Below, piece after piece: positions 791-45,245 of a stretch of 45,245 nt of DNA; the first letter of the stretch is position 1, and the number at the start of each line of letters is the position of its first letter. Location: positions 1 through 45,245 of IMG/VR virus record IMGVR_UViG_3300017752_000029, one strand, 5' to 3'. The position numbers and the translations under genes were made by a program. Under the pieces are notes generated by a model. That model was not told where the DNA came from. It saw nothing but the letters and a program-made list of their open reading frames with translations, and ran no database searches. This stretch comes from a virus.

Positions 791-837
791 ATTTTTCTTT
801 TTTCTATTGTTTTTGTTGTTATCTTGATTATGTATAT

Positions 838-867
838 ATTATATCATAAAGCACAACAAAAGTACAC
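838..867 (-). promoter_or_regulatory. Early-type promoter, cassette copy 1
   Basis: On the minus strand the -35 element GTGTAC (862-867) is followed after exactly 18 nt by -10 TATAAT (838-843) in the context TATGATATAATATATA. It belongs to a repeated cassette (about 805-936 here) that also carries AAAAGTTAAATTT about 60-70 nt upstream, a TATTGA/TCAATA hairpin just before the -35, and the 5' leader ATAATCAAGATAACAACAAA. T4 early promoters have a similar GTTTAC-type -35. It should drive the small genes from 790 leftward. Confidence 0.8.
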
Positions 868-939
868 AACTATAATATATTGACAATCAATACTTTATAA
901 AATTTATATTAAACAATATTTAAAATTTAACTTTTTTAT

Positions 940-1110
940 GAGGGCTTGTCCCTCACTTATGGAGCTTGCCGACATAAGTTCATAAGTGTTTATTAATGAA
1001 ATATTTATGAACCCTCGTTCCTCGGGTGCCCTTCGGGCAAATCTAGTATTTATAAAACTAAATTAGATTGATACGAATTGAAATTCGTTCTTGTGGTTTT
1101 AAAGGAAACT
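940..1110 (-). ncRNA. Hairpin-array ncRNA, copy A
   Basis: No gene of any length fits this stretch, but it is packed with inverted repeats read from the perfect promoter at 1117-1145. In transcript order: ACGAAT/ATTCGT (1073-1088), TGCCC-GAA-GGGCA (1027-1039), ACCC/GGGT with loop GAGGAACGA (1011-1027), a longer A/T stem (981-1009), ACTTATG-TCGGCAAGCTC-CATAAGT (955-979) and GAGGG-ACAAG-CCCTC (940-954). Several abut with no spacer. The 5' part shares ACAAGAAC plus a following hairpin with copies B and C, and TGCCCGAAGGGCACCCGAGG is shared with copy C. There is no U-tract after the last hairpin, so the 3' end is uncertain. Function is unknown. Confidence 0.6.
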
Positions 1111-1116
1111 AGTATT

Positions 1117-1145
1117 ATTATACTAAACTTTTGAAAACCTGTCAA
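1117..1145 (-). promoter_or_regulatory. Perfect sigma70-type promoter for ncRNA A
   Basis: Minus-strand TTGACA (1140-1145), a 17-nt spacer and TATAAT (1117-1122) match the bacterial housekeeping consensus at every position. The -35 overlaps the TGA stop of the GIY-YIG gene. The next protein gene in this direction starts at 790 and has its own promoter at 838-867, so the obvious product is the hairpin RNA at 940-1110. Confidence 0.85.
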
Positions 1146-1603
1146 TCTTTTAATGCTTCTAAATCTTTGATATTAATGTTTTTTATATGCGATTGATTAA
1201 TTCTGCATTGAATAATACCATTCAAATAATTATCAGACATTAAAACACCTCTAATAACTTGTACATATAATTCAGCATAACTTAATTCTCCTTTACTATA
1301 ACATATCATAAGAATTTTCCTTGAAAAATTTTCAGCACCATTCTCTTCTAATAATTTTTTTACATTATCAGAACTACCAAAATAGTCTTGCCAATCTGAT
1401 TCTTTTATGGTAATTCTTTTTCTTTTTTTACCTTTTAAAGGAGGTCTTTTTTGTTTAATGAAAAAGTTTTTTTTGCCTATATATTTTTTTCCAGTCAATA
1501 GGTCTGTTATCTCGTAAACAAAGCCTACAGCGTTTTTAGGAATATCTACTGAATTAAATTCTTTGTCTTTAAAAAACCAATTATTCTTCACCGTATAACT
1601 CAT
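1142..1603 (-). CDS. GIY-YIG family endonuclease (Seg-like)
   Basis: The N-terminal region shows the family signature as GFVYEI followed by KKYIGKK (the GIY and YIG elements), then a basic stretch (KGKKRKR) and SDWQDYFGSSDNV, which resembles stand-alone GIY-YIG nucleases of T4-type phages (Seg group). Such enzymes cut DNA and often act as free-standing homing endonucleases. I place the start at ATG 1603 (MSYTVKNN), preceded by AGGGAAG, rather than at ATG 1624, which lacks a ribosome site and lies deeper in the upstream gene. The gene overlaps the 59-aa zinc-ribbon gene by 23 nt. Its stop codon is part of the -35 of the ncRNA A promoter. The catalytic Arg and Glu were not verified individually. 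Confidence 0.75.
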   Translation of the reverse strand: MSYTVKNNWFFKDKEFNSVDIPKNAVGFVYEITDLLTGKKYIGKKNFFIKQKRPPLKGKKRKRITIKESDWQDYFGSSDNVKKLLEENGAENFSRKILMICYSKGELSYAELYVQVIRGVLMSDNYLNGIIQCRINQSHIKNINIKDLEALKD

Positions 1604-1760
1604 CGCTATCTTCCCTGTACTCATCTAAGGGATGGGCACAACAGGGGCAATAAGCCGGTTCGGGATTTTCTTCAATTGAATATAAAAGATCTTCGTCCTC
1701 TTTCCAGGTTATAGTATATTCCATTCCGCAGTTGTCACAACTGGTAATTACTTTATTCAT
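1581..1760 (-). CDS. Zinc-ribbon protein, 59 aa
   Basis: Starts at ATG 1760, overlapping the stop of the 86-aa gene, and ends at TAA 1581-1583 inside the GIY-YIG gene. The protein carries CDNCG near residues 8-12 and CPCC near residues 38-41, four cysteines spaced as in a small zinc ribbon, and ends in an acidic tail. Short proteins of this pattern are common in marine T4-type phages, with no assigned role that I know. It may bind nucleic acid or a protein partner. Overlaps on both sides indicate translational coupling. Confidence 0.7.
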   Translation of the reverse strand: MNKVITSCDNCGMEYTITWKEDEDLLYSIEENPEPAYCPCCAHPLDEYREDSDELYGEE

Positions 1761-3367: not shown

Positions 3368-4177
3368 TTAAGAGATTAACCACTTTTCGTATTTTGCCTT
3401 GATTTCTGAACTTTTCATCTCTTCAGTTATATCACAAGCTTCAATGAAATTAGGTAGTAAAACATCGTCATTTTCTTCTGTTATAATAGAAACGATTTTT
3501 TCTAAACGGCTTTCAAAAATAGATTTTATGCCTTTACCTTTAGGTCTGTGTGTACCTTTCTTAGGGTAATAAATTTTTACCGGATTATTACTAACGAAAA
3601 CTAATTTGTCATCATCATCAATACCTGCGAATGTCAATAATTTTTTAGTTCCTTGTAATTTATTAAGAATACCCAATTTGATATCACCAGGACGATTTGC
3701 AGAAAAAATTCTTTGTAATTCGTGTTTTTTAATAAGTTTAGCTTCTTTAGCAGGATCTCCGTTTGTTCTTCTCCACGCTGATTCCAATTCTTTAAATGGA
3801 GCGTTGCCTTCTGCTTCTGGAATCATTTTTTCTTTAGCAGATTCTTTATTATAACCAAGTTTCTTTAGTTTCTCTTTAAATATTTTTTTCCTAGCATCAA
3901 TGCCACTAATAACTAATTCTGGCTCTTCTACCTTTTCTGCGATTTCTTTATTATAACCAAGTTTCTTTAGTTTCTCTTTAAATATTTTTTTCCTAGCATC
4001 AATGCCTAATTCTGACTCTTCTACCTTTTCTGCGAAATCATCAGTTTTAATAGTTACAGGATATTCTTTTCCTTGAAACGTAAATTTCTTTTTTCCGTCT
4101 TTTTTTGCTGCTGCTGCGGCATAAGTGAAGTCACCTTGATCTTCATGTTTTATTTTTGCTAAATTTTCTTTTTTCAT
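3368..4177 (-). CDS. Hypothetical protein with internal tandem duplication
   Basis: A 269-residue basic protein with no recognised enzyme motif. Near the N-terminus it carries AAAAAKKDGKKKFTFQGKEY, a motif I have seen in other marine T4-type phage proteins of unknown role. Residues of roughly 50-115 contain the unit GIDARKKIFKEKLKKLGYNK twice in tandem, joined by AEKVEEPEL. The C-terminal half has a compact region (KHELQRIFSANRPGDIKLGI). The gene ends before a clear terminator and starts 21 nt after the stop of the nucleotidyltransferase-like gene, at the left end of the capsid-targeting island. A virion or internal role is possible but unproven. Confidence 0.75.
   Translation of the reverse strand: MKKENLAKIKHEDQGDFTYAAAAAKKDGKKKFTFQGKEYPVTIKTDDFAEKVEESELGIDARKKIFKEKLKKLGYNKEIAEKVEEPELVISGIDARKKIFKEKLKKLGYNKESAKEKMIPEAEGNAPFKELESAWRRTNGDPAKEAKLIKKHELQRIFSANRPGDIKLGILNKLQGTKKLLTFAGIDDDDKLVFVSNNPVKIYYPKKGTHRPKGKGIKSIFESRLEKIVSIITEENDDVLLPNFIEACDITEEMKSSEIKAKYEKWLIS
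3842..4034 (-). repeat. Tandem in-frame duplication of about 100 bp
   Basis: Two direct copies start at 3842 and 3944 (offset 102). The first 62 or so bases are identical, and the copies differ mainly by a 9-bp insertion (ACTAATAAC on the plus strand) that adds three residues. The near identity indicates a recent duplication within the 269-aa gene. Confidence 0.9.
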
Positions 4178-13004: not shown

Positions 13005-14390
13005 TTAATATTTAAAATTTGAGTAATCGTTACTGTCTTTTTTAGTTTTAGTTAAAGCATCTACACTAGAATTTGAATTAGTTGAATTATTAGAAGATAA
13101 TCCATCCGATGCACTATTTTCAGTATCATACAAACGCATTTTTGCTTTTTCTACTCCAACAATAAATTTAGGAATTTTATCTTTGTCACCATATCTGGAC
13201 TTTAATTGTTTTATCATGTATTGATTTGCCTTAGCAAGTTGTTCATCTTGAATGGCCATAAAGGCAAAATCTGCAGTATGAGCGATACCCCAAGATTCTG
13301 CAATATTTGTCAAATCTGCATCAGTAGAAGAAAACCCAGAACGATTTAATTGAACACCCGTCCATAGGGCAACTTTGTATTCTACTGCCATACCACGTAA
13401 TTCTTCAGAAATCATCTTTAAATAACCATAAGAATCTGAACTATTTTTAGATCTTTCTGACGCACAAATGCCAAGATAATCTACACAAATAACGTCAGGT
13501 AAAAATTCTTTTTTCAATTTCAATTCATTCAAAAGGGCCCTAAAGTGACCCACATGGGCACAAGCAGTAGGGTATTCTTTAATCATTAGTTGACCTTCAG
13601 TTTTTCCACTTATTCTTTTTACATTTGACTCGAATTTTTCTTTTGTCAAAAACTTCAGATCATTTATTTCTACATCAAACAAATTAGCATCAATACGTTC
13701 TGCAATTTTTTCTTCTGCCATTTCCATTGTAATATAAAGAACATTGTAACCCATTTGTAAATATGCAGAAGATAAATGACACATAATTAATGTTTTTCCA
13801 ACATTAGTACCTCCTAAAATAACGTTTGCAGTTTTACGAGGCACACCACCATCAGTAATTTCATTGAATTTTTGTAAATCAAACTCTATCCTTTCCTCTT
13901 TACGATGGTAAAATTCGTATCGCTCTTTAGCGTTAGAAATATAATCATGACCGACATTAGTGTCAAAAGATACAGACAATGCATCTTGCAACATATTAGG
14001 AATTGCCCCTGGCGCCTTTTCCTTATTGTCTCCATCAATAATATCTACAGATTCCATAATTGCTAAATGTAGTGCTCTTTCTTTACACCATTTCTCAGTA
14101 GTATCTAGCAACCAATCGTATTCAACTTTTTCGCAAACTTTAGATTGATTAATTAGTTCTAAAACATCTGGTGCATTAGGTCTTTCAAAATCTGGTTTTT
14201 GTTGATATTCTATATCTAATGCAGACGCAGATGGTAATTTATTGTATTTTGTAAGAAAAGACAAATACAAATCATATGCGACTTTATGATTTTTAGAGAA
14301 ATATCGCGGTTCTAAGTAAGGTATTACTTTGCGACAATACTCCTCATTGTTCATTAAATTATTGAATATTACTTGTTCAAAATTTATCAT
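13005..14390 (-). CDS. 41: Replicative DNA helicase gp41 (DnaB-type)
   Basis: A 461-residue homologue of T4 gp41, the hexameric 5'-3' helicase that works with the gp61 primase. Walker A is GGTNVGKT at 193-200, followed by the RecA-type segment NVLYITMEMAEEKIAERI and the B-region VICVDYLGI. The length is close to the T4 protein (475). It is the first gene behind the early-type promoter at 14428-14457, with an A-rich leader of about 30 nt and no clear Shine-Dalgarno sequence. The C-terminus is Ser/Asn/Lys-rich and probably disordered. Confidence 0.93.
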   Translation of the reverse strand: MINFEQVIFNNLMNNEEYCRKVIPYLEPRYFSKNHKVAYDLYLSFLTKYNKLPSASALDIEYQQKPDFERPNAPDVLELINQSKVCEKVEYDWLLDTTEKWCKERALHLAIMESVDIIDGDNKEKAPGAIPNMLQDALSVSFDTNVGHDYISNAKERYEFYHRKEERIEFDLQKFNEITDGGVPRKTANVILGGTNVGKTLIMCHLSSAYLQMGYNVLYITMEMAEEKIAERIDANLFDVEINDLKFLTKEKFESNVKRISGKTEGQLMIKEYPTACAHVGHFRALLNELKLKKEFLPDVICVDYLGICASERSKNSSDSYGYLKMISEELRGMAVEYKVALWTGVQLNRSGFSSTDADLTNIAESWGIAHTADFAFMAIQDEQLAKANQYMIKQLKSRYGDKDKIPKFIVGVEKAKMRLYDTENSASDGLSSNNSTNSNSSVDALTKTKKDSNDYSNFKY

Positions 14391-14427
14391 ATTTGTTTAG
14401 TTGTATAGTTATTTTGATTAAATATAT

Positions 14428-14457
14428 ATTATATCATAAAACAAAAAAAAGGTACAC
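14428..14457 (-). promoter_or_regulatory. Early-type promoter, cassette copy 2 (gene 41)
   Basis: Minus-strand GTGTAC (14452-14457), 18-nt spacer, TATAAT (14428-14433) in TATGATATAAT. The cassette spans about 14405-14527, with AAAAGTTAAATTT at the far end and a variant leader AATCAAAATAAC. The -35 forms part of the descending arm of the terminator at 14443-14478. Confidence 0.82.
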
Positions 14458-14478
14458 AACTATGAAGTGTTGTGTACC
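14443..14478 (-). terminator. Terminator embedded in an early promoter
   Basis: On the minus strand GGTACACAAC (14469-14478) pairs perfectly with GTTGTGTACC (14451-14460) over an 8-nt loop, followed by TTTTTTTT (14443-14450). It should end transcription from the uvsX side. The descending arm and T-run are also the -35 and spacer of the gene 41 promoter. Confidence 0.85.
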
Positions 14479-14516
14479 AATACCTTATAAAACATTTTTT
14501 AAAAACTTTTAGAAAT

Positions 14517-14816
14517 TTAACTTTTTTCTTTAAGTTTTCCTATTTCAAAGATATTACCAGAACTTAAATAATCTGCTAAAACATCTCCAATATGTTTGCG
14601 AAAATTATTTGAGTTTTCTAGTTCTTGGTGCGTATATTTATCGGTTGAGTCAAGTATTTCGTAATCAAATTTTAAAACGCATTGATCGTTTTTATCATCT
14701 TCCATTACTGCAACTTTCCCAAATCGAAATTTGACATCAAAATACTTTTTGTCTGTCAACCTCATAGGTAGGGTTGACAGACTAGAATCTTCTTCTGTAA
14801 TAAAAGAATTATTCAT
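14517..14816 (-). CDS. Hypothetical 99-aa protein next to uvsX
   Basis: The start ATG 14816 overlaps the uvsX stop, and the C-terminus (KLKEKS) ends inside the AAAAGTTAA element of the promoter cassette. The protein reads as a small mixed domain with FDVKFRFGKVAVMEDDKNDQ and ILDSTDKYTHQELENSN. I do not recognise the family. Close coupling to uvsX suggests a role in recombination or replication, which is inference from position. Confidence 0.75.
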   Translation of the reverse strand: MNNSFITEEDSSLSTLPMRLTDKKYFDVKFRFGKVAVMEDDKNDQCVLKFDYEILDSTDKYTHQELENSNNFRKHIGDVLADYLSSGNIFEIGKLKEKS

Positions 14817-22515: not shown

Positions 22516-22572
22516 TTAAAGTCTGCCATAAGATTTTGCATTTTTAGCTTCTTCTTGCTTTCTTTTAGTCAT
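22516..22572 (-). CDS. Possible 18-aa basic peptide
   Basis: An ATG at 22572, two bases after the stop of the beta-helix gene, opens MTKRKQEEAKNAKSYGRL and a stop. It fits the close-packed layout and has a sensible charged composition, but is too short for certainty. Confidence 0.3.
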   Translation of the reverse strand: MTKRKQEEAKNAKSYGRL

Positions 22573-22574
22573 AA

Positions 22575-23156
22575 CTAGCAAATCAAAACACCTTCAGAAA
22601 CTTTAGCATTTCCAAAAACTTGAGCATCTCCAGAAACTACCGCATCTTCAAAAACTTCAGCATTTCCAGAAACTTTAGCATCTCCAAAAACTGCAGCATT
22701 ATCATAAACTTGAGCTTTTCCATAAACTTCAGCATATCCAGTAACTTGAGAATTTCCAAAAACTTGAGCATTTTCAAAAACTTCAGCACTTCCAGAAACT
22801 ACTGCATATTCAGAAACTTCAGCTTTTCCAGAAACTGCTGCATATTCAGAAACTGCTACACTACCAGAAACTTTAGCGTTTCCATAAACTTTAGCGTTTC
22901 CAAAAACTTCAGCATATCCAGTAACTTTAGCGTTTCCAGAAACTACCGCATCTCCAGAAACTTGAGAACTTCCAGAAACTAAAGCAGTTCCAGAAACTTC
23001 AGCATTATCAGAAACCCAAGCATATCCTTCTTGGCTCAAGTTAGATTCTGATTCAATAAAACCGCCTAAGTCGCCCTTTTTAATAAAACCGAAATCCTTA
23101 AGGGCTCTTATTTGAGTTAAATTTTCTTTTTTATTTGTTGTCAATTCGTATTTCAT
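22575..23156 (-). CDS. Left-handed beta-helix repeat protein
   Basis: After about 40 N-terminal residues (including FIKKGDLGGFIESESNLSQ), the remaining 150 residues consist of hexapeptide repeats of the form (A/S)xVxG(N/S/D), such as GNAKVTGYAEVFGNAKVYGN. This is the hexapeptide pattern of a left-handed parallel beta-helix. The DNA shows the matching 18-bp periodicity. Similar repeat proteins are common in phages; most have no known role and lack transferase residues. It is the first gene behind the early-type promoter at 23193-23222, so it is probably made early and is not obviously structural. Repeat number is likely to vary between relatives. Confidence 0.85.
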   Translation of the reverse strand: MKYELTTNKKENLTQIRALKDFGFIKKGDLGGFIESESNLSQEGYAWVSDNAEVSGTALVSGSSQVSGDAVVSGNAKVTGYAEVFGNAKVYGNAKVSGSVAVSEYAAVSGKAEVSEYAVVSGSAEVFENAQVFGNSQVTGYAEVYGKAQVYDNAAVFGDAKVSGNAEVFEDAVVSGDAQVFGNAKVSEGVLIC

Positions 23157-23192
23157 ATTTGTCGTTTTTGTTGTTATCTTGATTATGTATAT

Positions 23193-23222
23193 ATTATATC
23201 ATAAAGCACAACAAAAGTACAC
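23193..23222 (-). promoter_or_regulatory. Early-type promoter, cassette copy 3
   Basis: Minus-strand GTGTAC (23217-23222), 18 nt, TATAAT (23193-23198). The cassette spans about 23160-23290 and shares ATAATCAAGATAACAACAAA in the leader with copies 1 and 5. The gene 46 stop lies in its AAAAGTTAAATTT element. It drives the beta-helix gene and the small genes downstream. Confidence 0.82.
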
Positions 23223-23281
23223 TACTATACTGTATTGATATTCAATAACTTAAGAAATTTTATGAAACTAATTTTAAAAAT

Positions 23282-24997
23282 TTAACTTTTTATTTCACTG
23301 AAATTATTATTTTTTATAATTTCTATTTTACGGTCAAATTTATTTTCCATAAGATTAGAATCATGAGTAATAATAAATGTGTTAGTATCTTTGGGTTGAT
23401 CGTAAATTAGTTTCATTAAATTTTCAGAACCATCTGTGTCTAAATTTCCAGAAAAAACTTCATCCAGAATTAAAAGATTAGTGAATGCAGAATTTTTAAG
23501 TCTAGCAATATGTCTCCAAGTAAATAAAAATGCTAAATCAATTCTTGCCTTTTCTCCTTCACTAAAACTCGAGTATTTAAAAACATCGCGATGTCGTGAT
23601 TTTATAACTTCATCAAATGTATCATCGAGTTCAAGCTTGACAAACAAATCTAAATCATTCAAATATTTATTAATCAGTTTATTCATTACTGGTAGATATT
23701 TGGCAATAATTTTTGCCTTTATACCAGAATCTCGTAACAACTCACTTGCTGCTAAATAATACTCTTGAGTTTCTTGTAAATCACCTTTTTCATTAAGTAG
23801 GTTTTCTTTTTTATCTTTGTTTTGATCTAAAAATGATTGAATTTTTTCTATTTTAGAAACATCTACTTTTTCGTCTTCGGAATCCAATACGATCAGTTGC
23901 TTATCTAAATTAGAAATAAGCTGTACATTCATTCGTATGTTTTCTTCCAAATCTTTCAGTTGCGTTATAGCATCTGATAATTCATTTATTTTAGAGTTTT
24001 TAGCATCTGCAGCAATCTCCAAATCTTTTTTATTTTCATCAAGTTTTAATAATTTTTTATTATACTCTTCAGCTTTTAAAGACGCTATTTCTGAGTTAAT
24101 TTTTTGTTCACAAGTTGGACATACATCAGTTTCTGAGAAAAATTTATGATGTCTTTTTGTATTTTTAATTTCATTATTAGTTTGAGAAATATCATTCTTG
24201 TATTTGTTATATTCTTCGTTTTTCTTCTGTATCTTTTTGTTAATCACCGGAAGATGTTTTGTAACAATAGAAACATTTTTTATATTTCTTTTATTTAATA
24301 ATTCTTTTTCTTTTTCTAACTCTTTTCTTTTCTTTTCGTTTTTTACAGATTCTTTCAATGAAATTTCTTTAAGCTCTTTAATATGTTTTTCGTTTAAACG
24401 AATTTCAGTATTAGTAAGTTCTATTTTATTATTTAAATCTTTTAGTTCATTTTTTGAAACCGCAAACTTCTCTTTTAGCAAACGATTCATATTAGCAAAA
24501 ACAGAAATATCTAACAAATCCTCAATTACTATTCTTCTTTGTCCAGTCGGTAATTGCATAAAAGGAATAAAATTTCCAGAACCTAATACCACAACTTGGT
24601 GAAAAGATTTATAATTGAGTTTTAATATATTATCTTCAAGTATTTTTTGATAATCGCGATTATGTGATTCTTGATTAATTATATTACCGTTCAAATATAT
24701 TTCAAAAATATTAGGTTTTAATCCTCTAATAATTTTGTATTTTTTTGAACCTATACTAAAATCCAATTCAACTATACAATTTTTGTCATTTATAGAATTT
24801 ACTAATGCTGGTTTATTAATATTCCTGTGGGCCTTTCCAAATAAGGCAAAAGAAATTGTATCTAGTAAACAAGAACTTTTTCCTGCTCCATTTGTACCAG
24901 ATAACAAAGTTGTGGATGTTTTATTTAAAGAAATTTCTATAGGATTGTTACCGATTCCTAAGAAATTTTTTGCAGACAGTTTTTCAAATATAATCAT
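23282..24997 (-). CDS. 46: Recombination nuclease subunit gp46 (SbcC/Rad50-like)
   Basis: A 571-residue SMC-like ATPase. Walker A is GTNGAGKS at 34-41. A long coiled coil follows, interrupted by the zinc hook CPTC at 293-296. The C-terminal ATPase half has SEGEKARIDLAFLF as signature and LLILDEVFSGNLD as Walker B/D-loop. With gp47 it forms the nuclease that resects DNA ends for recombination-dependent replication. The length is close to T4 gp46 (560). The gene starts 11 nt after the gp47 stop. Confidence 0.95.
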   Translation of the reverse strand: MIIFEKLSAKNFLGIGNNPIEISLNKTSTTLLSGTNGAGKSSCLLDTISFALFGKAHRNINKPALVNSINDKNCIVELDFSIGSKKYKIIRGLKPNIFEIYLNGNIINQESHNRDYQKILEDNILKLNYKSFHQVVVLGSGNFIPFMQLPTGQRRIVIEDLLDISVFANMNRLLKEKFAVSKNELKDLNNKIELTNTEIRLNEKHIKELKEISLKESVKNEKKRKELEKEKELLNKRNIKNVSIVTKHLPVINKKIQKKNEEYNKYKNDISQTNNEIKNTKRHHKFFSETDVCPTCEQKINSEIASLKAEEYNKKLLKLDENKKDLEIAADAKNSKINELSDAITQLKDLEENIRMNVQLISNLDKQLIVLDSEDEKVDVSKIEKIQSFLDQNKDKKENLLNEKGDLQETQEYYLAASELLRDSGIKAKIIAKYLPVMNKLINKYLNDLDLFVKLELDDTFDEVIKSRHRDVFKYSSFSEGEKARIDLAFLFTWRHIARLKNSAFTNLLILDEVFSGNLDTDGSENLMKLIYDQPKDTNTFIITHDSNLMENKFDRKIEIIKNNNFSEIKS

Positions 24998-26748: not shown

Positions 26749-26798
26749 ACAATTCTTATAAGATAACATATTGAATAAAAAAATTCAATAGTGTTGCA

Positions 26799-26898
26799 TT
26801 ATAGTGTTGACAGGTTTTTAAAAATTCATTATAATATTCTAAGACAAACTAAAATAAACAAGAACTGAATTCAATATAATTGAATTGCCCGAAGGGCA
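26799..26898 (+). repeat. 100-bp dispersed repeat, copy in ncRNA B
   Basis: Matches 45129-45228 base for base with about six substitutions and no indel. It covers the perfect promoter, an identical unstructured leader (AAGACAAACTAAAATAAACA), an A/T hairpin and TGCCCGAAGGGCA. Confidence 0.92.
26807..26835 (+). promoter_or_regulatory. Perfect sigma70-type promoter for ncRNA B
   Basis: Plus-strand TTGACA (26807-26812), 17-nt spacer, TATAAT (26830-26835). It points opposite to every protein gene in the window and towards the 3' end of the Sm-like gene. Confidence 0.88.
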
Positions 26899-26981
26899 TT
26901 TAGTGGAGCCTGCGACACTAAATTAATTAAAGATCTTTTGACTCGACAAGCTCGTCAAAAGAGCGGCAAGCCGCAAATCTT
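26842..26981 (+). ncRNA. Hairpin-array ncRNA, copy B
   Basis: Downstream of the promoter an unstructured leader is followed by five stems: AATTCAAT-ATA-ATTGAATT (26868-26886), TGCCC-GAA-GGGCA (26886-26898), TTTAGTG-GAGCCTGCGA-CACTAAA (26899-26922), TCTTTTGAC-TCGACAAGCTC-GTCAAAAGA (26934-26962) and GCGG-CAAG-CCGC (26963-26974). AAGAT (26930-26934) and ATCTT (26977-26981) could close the last two into a Y-shaped unit, sharing one base with the longer stem. There is no plus-strand gene. The transcript would end just before the stop of the convergent Sm-like gene at 26984, with no clear U-tract. Function unknown. Confidence 0.65.
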
Positions 26982-30531: not shown

Positions 30532-31074
30532 TTAAAAACCATACGAGACATCAGCAATATCTTTAAATAAACGAATAATATCTAAAGACTCACTCATATG
30601 ATCGAATCTATGGCTTCCGCCATTAAACATTTTCATATTGTTGAAATTTTTAAGCTTGAGTTTTTCTAGTGTTTCTTCGCTATCAAATAACTCATCATCT
30701 TTATCCAAAAGAATTAAGCCCATATCATTGTCTGGAAAGTTTGGATAAGATTTATAAATGTCTTCGTTTACTTTAAACCGATTTTTAAGATTTTTTTCTG
30801 GATTCAAACTAGGATTAATAGATACAAATGGTAGACCCGCTTTTACACCTAAATGAGCGGCCATAAATCCTCCTAAAGAAGTACCAACTAGAAGATCTAT
30901 TTTTTGTGCAAGAATTTTTTCTAAAATTTCATTATATAAGTCTATGAAATTTTTGTCTTTATAATCTAAATCAATGATAAAGACATTGCCTAATTTTTCT
31001 AATTCTTTTACTTTATTGGATTTTTTGTAAACATCATCGTTATGTTTCCACCCGTGTAAATATAGTATATTCAT
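30532..31074 (-). CDS. YqiA-like alpha/beta-hydrolase esterase
   Basis: From ATG 31074 the protein begins MNILYLHGWKHND, with the nucleophile elbow GTSLGG, then SINPSLNP, LLDKDDELF with the likely acid, and GGSHRFDHM with the catalytic His. This is the pattern of the small YqiA/UPF0227 esterase group found in several T4-type marine phages. An ATG five codons upstream (31089) would coincide with the predicted transcription start, so I prefer 31074. Substrate unknown. It is the first gene behind the early-type promoter at 31096-31125. Confidence 0.8.
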   Translation of the reverse strand: MNILYLHGWKHNDDVYKKSNKVKELEKLGNVFIIDLDYKDKNFIDLYNEILEKILAQKIDLLVGTSLGGFMAAHLGVKAGLPFVSINPSLNPEKNLKNRFKVNEDIYKSYPNFPDNDMGLILLDKDDELFDSEETLEKLKLKNFNNMKMFNGGSHRFDHMSESLDIIRLFKDIADVSYGF

Positions 31075-31095
31075 ATTATTGTCTTTCATGTATAT

Positions 31096-31125
31096 ATTAT
31101 ATCATAATTAATCGCAAAAGTACAC
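31096..31125 (-). promoter_or_regulatory. Early-type promoter, cassette copy 4 (esterase)
   Basis: Minus-strand GTGTAC (31120-31125), 18 nt, TATAAT (31096-31101) in TATGATATAATATATA. The spacer sequence differs from the other copies while both boxes and the upstream AAAAAGTGAAATTT element (to about 31195) are kept. Confidence 0.8.
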
Positions 31126-31202
31126 AAATATAATTCATTGACTGATAATAACCTATAAAATTATTTTAAAGAACTTTTAAAAATTTCACTTTTTTACGAC
31201 AT

Positions 31203-31233
31203 AAAAAAAGACTGACTCCGAAAAGTCAGTCTT
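31203..31233 (-). terminator. Terminator after the major capsid gene
   Basis: AAGACTGACT and AGTCAGTCTT form a perfect 10-bp stem with a 6-nt loop, followed on the minus strand by TTTTT. It lies 26 nt beyond the gene 23 stop, where T4-type phages also terminate. Confidence 0.92.
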
Positions 31234-31259
31234 AAAAGAATTAAATTCTTTGTAATAGC

Positions 31260-43139: not shown

Positions 43140-43195
43140 ATTATCTCCAATTATTTAATAAGTTTCATATTTGTTGTTATCTTGATTATGTATAT

Positions 43196-43225
43196 ATTAT
43201 ATCATAAAACACAACAAAAGTACAC
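43196..43225 (-). promoter_or_regulatory. Early-type promoter, cassette copy 5
   Basis: Minus-strand GTGTAC (43220-43225), 18 nt, TATAAT (43196-43201). The cassette spans about 43165-43298 and shares the ATAATCAAGATAACAACAAA leader. The leader contains a five-codon ORF (MKLIK) before the ribosome site of the 124-aa gene. Confidence 0.82.
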
Positions 43226-43293
43226 AACTATATTATGTTGATAATTAATAACTTAGGAAACGTTTTAAAACTTAATTTAAAAATTTAACCTTT

Positions 43294-44181
43294 TTAAATT
43301 GCATCTGGCATGCCAAACGGATTTACTTTAGTAAAGTCGATAAAATTGTTCCCATCTATTTCAAAATCAGTATTTTCTACCATTTGATCTTTTGCCATTG
43401 GTGTCCAATCATCTACAGTTTGGATAGTAGCCGTTGTACCAGAACTATCTCCTGTAATCGTAATCCCAGCAATAAGTGAGGTGTTGGAACCATCATCTGC
43501 CTTTTCTGTTACAATTTCTATTGCGCTTCCATCATCTTCAATACCGGCTACCTCAGCAATTACATTAACACCATTTACATTACCAAAAATATCTTCGCCT
43601 ATATAAAAATCTCCACTTGAAGCAGTAATTTCTAATTTGGTTCTTGGTGCAAAATTTCTTTCAATTACGTTTATTTCGTCTACATCTGTGTCAATTTCTT
43701 CAGAAGAGTATTCAAACATTTCTAGTGTAATTGAGTACCCAAATGCACCAAATAATTTAACACCATCATTTTGTAAATCTGCATATTTTATTTCCCATAA
43801 GGCCTTGGCATCTGGAATATAAATTAAATCGCCTTCATAAGGTCTTACTTGTTCTGTGTCAGTAATATATTTGCCAACAAATGCAGACCAAGCTCTTTTT
43901 GGTATAGTGATCTTTAATTGATCTCTAATACTCATTCCAAATTTTTCAATTAAATCGCCGTCGCCTTCAAAACTATCAAATGACTCAACAGTTGCTTCTA
44001 TAATATATTGAGAACCAAACTTGACTAGAGATTCTTCATTAAAAATACCATTATAATTAATTATCGTTCTTGGTAAATAATAAACATTAATTCCAGAAAA
44101 TCTACAAGCTTCTCCGTACAAATCTTCATAAAGACTTGATTCTTCTCTATCGTATTTAGTTAAAAAAGGATTTATTGGCAT
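43294..44181 (-). CDS. 14: Neck protein gp14
   Basis: A 295-residue homologue of T4 gp14 (256). MPINPFLTKYDREESSLYED, FSGINVYYLPRTIINYNGIF, FGMSIRDQLKITIPKRAW and GDLIYIPDAKALWEIKY are typical. The C-terminal region has an inserted Asp/Ser/Thr-rich domain (SGDFYIGEDIFGNVNGVNVI) that makes it longer than in T4, probably exposed. It helps join head and tail. Confidence 0.92.
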   Translation of the reverse strand: MPINPFLTKYDREESSLYEDLYGEACRFSGINVYYLPRTIINYNGIFNEESLVKFGSQYIIEATVESFDSFEGDGDLIEKFGMSIRDQLKITIPKRAWSAFVGKYITDTEQVRPYEGDLIYIPDAKALWEIKYADLQNDGVKLFGAFGYSITLEMFEYSSEEIDTDVDEINVIERNFAPRTKLEITASSGDFYIGEDIFGNVNGVNVIAEVAGIEDDGSAIEIVTEKADDGSNTSLIAGITITGDSSGTTATIQTVDDWTPMAKDQMVENTDFEIDGNNFIDFTKVNPFGMPDAI

Positions 44182-45120: not shown

Positions 45121-45128
45121 TATTTATA
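45121..45128 (-). promoter_or_regulatory. Late-type element TATAAATA (Ntn-hydrolase gene)
   Basis: Exact match on the minus strand 7 nt before ATG 45113. It is back to back with the plus-strand ncRNA C promoter, whose -35 begins 9 nt away. Confidence 0.45.
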
Positions 45129-45228
45129 TTATAGTATTGACAGGTTTTTAAAAATTCATTATAATATTCTAAGACAAACTAAAATAAACAAGAACTAAAT
45201 TTAATTATATTGAATTGCCCGAAGGGCA
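45129..45228 (+). repeat. 100-bp dispersed repeat, copy in ncRNA C
   Basis: Second copy of the repeat at 26799-26898. The two differ at about six positions, mainly in the A/T hairpin, where one change keeps the stem through a G-U pair and the 3-nt loop changes from ATA to TAT. Confidence 0.92.
45137..45165 (+). promoter_or_regulatory. Perfect sigma70-type promoter for ncRNA C
   Basis: Plus-strand TTGACA (45137-45142), 17-nt spacer, TATAAT (45160-45165), identical in sequence through the spacer to the ncRNA B promoter. Confidence 0.88.
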
Positions 45229-45245
45229 CCCGAGGAACGAGGGTC
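45172..45245 (+). ncRNA. Hairpin-array ncRNA, copy C (truncated by window)
   Basis: The leader is identical to copy B. It is followed by AATTTAAT-TAT-ATTGAATT (45198-45216), TGCCC-GAA-GGGCA (45216-45228) and ACCC/GGGT with loop GAGGAACGA (45228-45244), then the window ends. The last two elements are shared with copy A, so C links A and B into one family. Confidence 0.6.

Follow-up and report, generated by a model that had tools for sequence, protein, structure and literature searches.

Why does a phage carry perfect host-type promoters that lead into chains of hairpins? This question is raised by positions 26,799 to 26,981 of the window, a stretch of 45,245 bases that is the entire IMG/VR virus record IMGVR_UViG_3300017752_000029. 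An initial annotation had read this locus (B), together with two others (A and C), as a three-copy family of hairpin-array RNAs. We found that the promoter-plus-hairpin family is real and that it has at least four copies, the fourth of which (D) lies in the viral contig L004 (5,870 b). Locus B is composed of the following features.

26800..26805, plus strand: TATAGT box, 24 nt before TATAAT, common to C, D and three gene promoters
26807..26835, plus strand: promoter TTGACA GGTTTTTAAAAATTCAT TATAAT, 12 of 12 consensus positions, spacer 17
26836..26867, plus strand: leader with ACAAGAAC (26858-26865), common to A and C and absent in D
26868..26886, plus strand: hairpin H0, AATTCAAT-ATA-ATTGAATT, one C-G pair of which is U-G in C
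26886..26898, plus strand: hairpin H1, TGCCC-GAA-GGGCA, identical in four of four copies
26898..26923, plus strand: hairpin H2, ATTTAGTG-GAGCCTGCGA-CACTAAAT, of the type of D's H3 with the loop inverted
26934..26962, plus strand: hairpin H3, TCTTTTGAC-TCGACAAGCTC-GTCAAAAGA, 48.9 bits with model R1, itself built from this hairpin
26963..26974, plus strand: hairpin H4, GCGG-CAAG-CCGC, abutting H3 and without a U-tract after it

The record has 30% G+C, and no tRNA genes were found in its 45,245 bases. Judged by its head, tail, terminase and replication/recombination genes, it is a distant, little-known myovirus of the T4 superfamily, because the major head protein, portal, sheath, terminase, gp46/gp47, UvsX and a DnaB-type helicase are encoded. 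The nearest cultured relatives by protein are phage C48C1 (OQ984149), Methylophilales phages (Melnitz) and Pelagibacter phage HTVC008M, with about 40-57% protein identity over most of the head, tail, terminase, recombination and replication genes. In addition, C48C1 is colinear with the record across the structural and replication genes. All recognisable genes of the record are carried by the minus strand.

The copies have a common plan, namely promoter, leader, an optional H0, H1, H2, H3 and H4, in which H1 abuts H2 and H3 abuts H4. The features of the other copies are as follows.

1117..1145, minus strand: promoter of A, TTGACA GGTTTTCAAAAGTTTAG TATAAT, its -35 overlapping the stop codon of a SegE-like gene
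1027..1039, minus strand: H1 of A, TGCCC-GAA-GGGCA
1011..1027, minus strand: H2 of A, ACCC-GAGGAACGA-GGGT
955..979, minus strand: H3 of A, ACTTATG-TCGGCAAGCTC-CATAAGT
939..955, minus strand: H4 of A, TGAGGG-ACAAG-CCCTCA
45137..45165, plus strand: promoter of C, identical to that of B over 29 nt
45166..45245, plus strand: leader, H0, H1 (45216-45228) and an H2 of the A/D type (45228-45244) of C, ending with the record
L004 4241-4213, minus strand: perfect promoter of D, with hairpins extending to about 4087

D was found by the string TGCCCGAAGGGCACCCGAGGAACGAGGGT. Since the window is the complete record, C is broken off inside or just after its second hairpin. The homology of about 100 bp that had been described between B and C was recovered as 101 nt at 94% (26798-26898 versus 45128-45228). 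The string said to be common to A and C is also real, but it is longer than the 20 nt noted at first, extending over 33 nt at 97% (1011-1043 versus 45212-45244).

The pattern TTGACA-N17-TATAAT occurs exactly three times in the record, at 1145-1117 (minus), 26807-26835 (plus) and 45137-45165 (plus). As the initial annotation had claimed, A, B and C match the sigma70 consensus at all 12 positions with a spacer of 17, whereas a mean of 0.03 occurrences is expected by chance (100 dinucleotide shuffles, none of them with three). The -35, the GGTTTTnAAAA half of the spacer and the -10 are invariant across the copies, and the extended promoter of D retains GGTTTTTAAAA. The TATAGT box found at 24 nt upstream of TATAAT in B, C and D stands 25 nt before it in three of the phage's own gene promoters. 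Furthermore, all four copies have their promoter at the H1 side of the hairpin array. This fixed side and the retention of all 12 consensus positions argue that transcription of the array matters.

The extended promoter TTGACAGGTTTTnAAAA was found again in unrelated phages, ahead of protein genes. Thus, it is a general strong promoter and no mark of the cassette family. For instance, in contigs L005-L020 from other phages, TTGACAGGTTTTnAAAA-N6-TATAAT precedes a gene starting MRNYWTC..PFADW, and the strong promoter form is what they have in common. The promoter pattern alone was present in 17 viral contigs; all but L004 were without the array, and their promoters drive protein genes where genes are readable.

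The chain of nearly abutting stem-loops that had been noticed downstream of the promoters is well above expectation. There were four strong chains of abutting hairpins in the record, against a mean of 0.05 per shuffled window, and one of the four is an ordinary terminator region.

939-979: chain of A
26868-26923 and 26934-26974: two chains of B
31208-31251: ordinary terminator region

When RNA folding was compared with that of shuffles, z was -4.3 for B and -3.2 for A; D, folded whole, was no better than shuffles (z = -1.2). The H1 loop GAA is conserved, and the H2 loop is GAG-GAA-CGA in A, C and D and GAG-CCTG-CGA in B. The loops of H3 (TCG-n-CAAG-CTC) and H4 (n-CAAG) are nearly invariant between copies. 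In contrast, the stems differ between copies, and their pairing is kept by matched changes. In the H3 stem, aligned from three copies and the inverted H2 of B, 28 of 28 cells are paired and six of the seven pairs are changed on both sides (0 of 500 shuffles), and the covariation is 0.95, compared with 0.34 after shuffling and no more than 0.11 after sliding. For H3 and H4 together, 97% of cells are paired and eight pairs have double changes; all these counts come from three or four sequences, two of them from the record, in alignments padded by hand with N to line up unequal loops. The stems are also preserved, by compensatory changes, in the one homologous locus found (D), and loss of the stems in such a locus had been set beforehand as the observation that would speak against an RNA family.

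A covariance model of H3-H4 built from A and B recovers A and B, and it independently detects the inverted copy in B (minus strand 26922-26887, 22.1 bits, E 0.0019). The H2 stem of B differs from the H3 stem of D by a single compensatory pair, and its loop has the opposite orientation. We also considered kissing between the H2 and H3 loops (GAG..CGA with TCG..CTC). A and D were no better than shuffled loops (1053 and 1159 of 2000) and B was marginal (82 of 2000 shuffled loops), and the idea was dropped.

The compensatory stems and the perfect sigma70 consensus support the reading of the arrays as structured RNA. However, the complementary strand of the arrays folds equally well, and only 1 of the 78 stem pairs is G-U, the rest being Watson-Crick, a count that is biased because the stems were located by Watson-Crick extension. 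The sole G-U pair, in H0 of C (C-G in B), is a standard pair on the promoter strand only. The initial structured-RNA reading is therefore weakened in its strand-specific part, because the complementary strand folds, G-U pairs are nearly absent and one hairpin of B is loop-inverted relative to the D type. That the loop inversion is tolerated in B likewise counts against a purely RNA reading. In addition, B and C switch to different second hairpins exactly past H1, which looks like module exchange. Near-total Watson-Crick pairing, folding of both strands and this partner switch together leave room for a role at the DNA level.

Such a role could be that of a PeSL-like DNA cassette, a possible but somewhat doubtful explanation in our judgment. 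Dispersed repeats of promoter and stem-loops would give short homologies for recombination and gene shuffling, the hairpins would act as DNA (cruciform or single-strand hairpins), and any RNA would be a by-product. The 101 nt of likeness between B and C up to their switch, the inverted-loop H2 of B, the Watson-Crick pairing on two strands that both fold, and the termination of the record inside a repeated hairpin all agree with it. It does not account for hairpins without a U-tract or for promoters that oppose the genes in B, C and D, and recombination does not need a perfect promoter at a fixed place. PeSLs are cited as promoter/stem-loop elements mediating shuffling between T4-like phages (PMC4503421). 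The cassettes resemble them in being intergenic, scattered over a T4-superfamily genome and built from stem-loops and a strong sigma70-like promoter, and in showing hints of exchanged modules; as to dispersed, recombining copies, we saw four copies and a single apparent change of partner, between B and C. They differ in having at least four abutting hairpins downstream of the promoter, with conserved loops on covarying stems. From the work of Arbiol in 2010 and Comeau in 2014, the stem-loops of PeSLs (promoter-early stem-loops) are reportedly terminators, beside promoters serving genes. In the cassettes, the consensus scan found no intrinsic terminator at A or B, and the promoters of B, C and D point against genes.

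The same scan found no U-tract after the hairpins and no terminator-like site on either strand of A or B. Long T-tracts mark the intrinsic terminators that the phage does have (42735-42706; 31233-31208), so the look of an intrinsic terminator is absent from the arrays. The hairpins do sit at gene ends, as ordinary intrinsic terminators or 3′ mRNA stabilisers would, but we consider this explanation highly improbable, for A and B lack the U-tract that the phage uses elsewhere and a promoter is always attached. On the promoter strand, the arrays are followed by no terminator that would set a 3′ end for the predicted RNA. One of the phage's own terminators, at window 31208-31233, is a clear one, with a UUCG hairpin and then TTTTTTT just past the major head protein gene.

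The surroundings of the copies vary. B and C had been said to run against every gene, which is correct for all recognisable genes; D is also opposed to its genes, and A is co-directional. The statement that no protein gene lies behind the promoters holds strictly for B, C and D only, since A is followed by gene 790-452, which has its own promoter cassette. No start codon opens a frame of at least 30 aa within about 200 nt of the predicted transcript start of A or B, and the predicted transcript of D has an 84-aa open reading frame that is not common to A or B. D is flanked by a 165-aa ORF and gp25 of a T4-like baseplate operon. B is in the gp55-uvsW interval, near a uvsY homologue, and its neighbour is an unnamed 102-aa ORF next to uvsW. 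Directly upstream of A, there is a SegE-like GIY-YIG homing endonuclease gene (window 1142-1624, minus strand; PF19835, E 5.8e-34).

These positions could suit an antisense or interfering unit, in which the strong promoter would send transcripts into the upstream late gene at its 3′ end. Late expression would thereby fall early in infection, while the hairpins would slow or protect the antisense RNA. In line with this, the arrays of B and D, which oppose the genes, stop a few nt from the stop codon of the upstream gene, and C, also opposed, is separated by 23 nt from the start of the gene that lies below it. However, A is co-directional with the genes, and the targets differ (the 102-aa ORF next to uvsW; the 165-aa ORF of the baseplate operon) and fit no single target. 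We regard an antisense unit as unlikely.

In the colinear relatives whose sequence was read, C48C1 among them, the cassette is absent from the site of B, and the interval upstream of gp55 holds only an ordinary sense promoter. The gaps that hold cassettes are short or empty in relatives. This bears on a further explanation, an origin-type R-loop site, at which the promoter transcript would serve as a replication primer, like that of T4 ori(uvsY). The presence of several such promoters in a genome and the position of B near the uvsY homologue would fit; the copies are hairpin-rich with no unwinding element, though, and an origin should be retained in relatives, whereas all those read lack the cassette at this site. 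We give this explanation scarcely any credence.

To find further copies, several collections were searched. The record had no Rfam match at the gathering score, and only chance-level matches at relaxed thresholds. When the elements were compared by BlastN with 50,697 phage genomes and 72,556 plasmids, all matches were short and at chance level; judged by these, convincing copies are absent from cultured phages and plasmids. A covariance-model search had been proposed in the initial annotation, where many matches were to count in favour of an RNA family; with the H3-H4 model, it found 0 homologues besides L004 in 30 other phage records, and its one match (E 3.2) was noise. In exact and loop-based scans of 2.9 million viral contigs, L004 was the sole true homologue among the matches listed. 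A hairpin-pattern match in L021 was due to chance, and, apart from L004, so were at least 79 new loci of the broadest loop pattern, among the matches listed, and seven loci of another loop-pattern scan. In bacterial genomes, neither the exact hairpin pair nor SbcD relatives were found.

A REP/REPIN-like hairpin element, spread by a Y1 (RAYT/TnpA-REP) transposase, is very unlikely in our view. Like REPs and REPINs, the cassettes are intergenic and have short palindromic hairpins in pairs, some inverted, with conserved mismatch-flanked loops, and similar loops (CTTCGACAAGCTCAGG) exist in the unrelated GC-rich viral contig L167. REPs are defined by a GTAG-type tetranucleotide 5′ of the palindrome (PMC8266576), whereas no GTAG is beside any hairpin here, the copies are few and carry their own promoter, which REPs lack, and no Y1_Tnp gene was found in the 45-kb record, a genome fragment. 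The REP-like hairpins of L167 are CCTGAGCTTGTCGAAGG, with a loop equal to the H3 loop of B. Since the terminators and gene-driving promoters of PeSLs are not seen and REPs fail on GTAG, we placed the cassette in no family.

Taken together, one of two things is probable: the cassette gives rise to a structured non-coding RNA, or it moves between genes by shuffling. We tentatively prefer, as the best single explanation and short of an even chance, a dispersed cassette that would be transcribed early by the host polymerase into a structured non-coding RNA with protein-recognised loops, and copied or shuffled between sites in the manner of T4 PeSLs. The cassette would be a self-contained unit of about 160-210 bp, in which a host-type sigma70 promoter is followed by a leader and by an array of four to six hairpins that almost touch. 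Its RNA, structured and about 110-180 nt long, would be produced by the unmodified host RNA polymerase as soon as infection begins, from several copies per genome. Conserved loops on freely varying stems suggest recognition by a protein, hence a regulator or a decoy. The cassette would occupy intergenic gaps in either orientation and be copied and shuffled by recombination between copies. This explanation is built on the promoters, the homology of four copies, the conserved loops with compensatory stems, the empty site in relatives and the lack of intrinsic terminators, from which we infer transcription, the RNA ends, protein binding and the decoy role. We placed the RNA gene somewhat above the PeSL-like cassette because recombination alone leaves the perfect, fixed, array-facing promoter unexplained. 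The decoy, R-loop primer and recombination roles named in the initial annotation are possible ones.

In a more specific and rather doubtful form of the RNA explanation, the copies would belong to a multi-copy class of phage non-coding RNAs, whose fixed loops on interchangeable stems titrate a host protein (e.g. a nuclease or a defence sensor). Such RNAs would be made from the first minutes by unmodified host polymerase and would spread in phage genomes as promoter-plus-RNA cassettes. Small phage RNAs and decoys like type III antitoxin RNAs combine a strong promoter with a compact structured non-coding RNA, and the cassettes have the same general build, with no sequence or Rfam match to them. 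The put elements of HK022 have two stem-loops and serve a long early operon. They are similar in placing a structured RNA (predicted here) directly downstream of a strong phage promoter, but no operon is behind B, C or D. To our knowledge, dedicated non-coding RNA genes are nearly unknown in phages of the T4 superfamily. A cassette in which the strongest possible host promoter is joined to hairpins with covarying stems, and which has copies at different intergenic sites, would be new either as a phage RNA decoy or regulator or as a form of shuffling cassette.

The record has other repeats. A 143-nt upstream cassette occurs in five copies (window 794-936, 14384-14526, 23149-23291, 31052-31194 and 43152-43294), which are 66-85% alike to the reference. 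It carries GTGTACTTTTGTTGTG...TATGATATAAT, in several copies with a TATTGAnTnTCAATA dyad, and each copy immediately precedes a minus-strand gene; it is probably the phage's own promoter class. At window 22535-23092, there are 21 tandem 18-nt units in a 193-aa ORF with a match to a beta-solenoid repeat (YdcK) and a weak one to bactofilin. In addition, a perfect 63-nt direct repeat is present at window 3842-3904 and 3944-4006, 102 nt apart, inside ORF 3368-4177.
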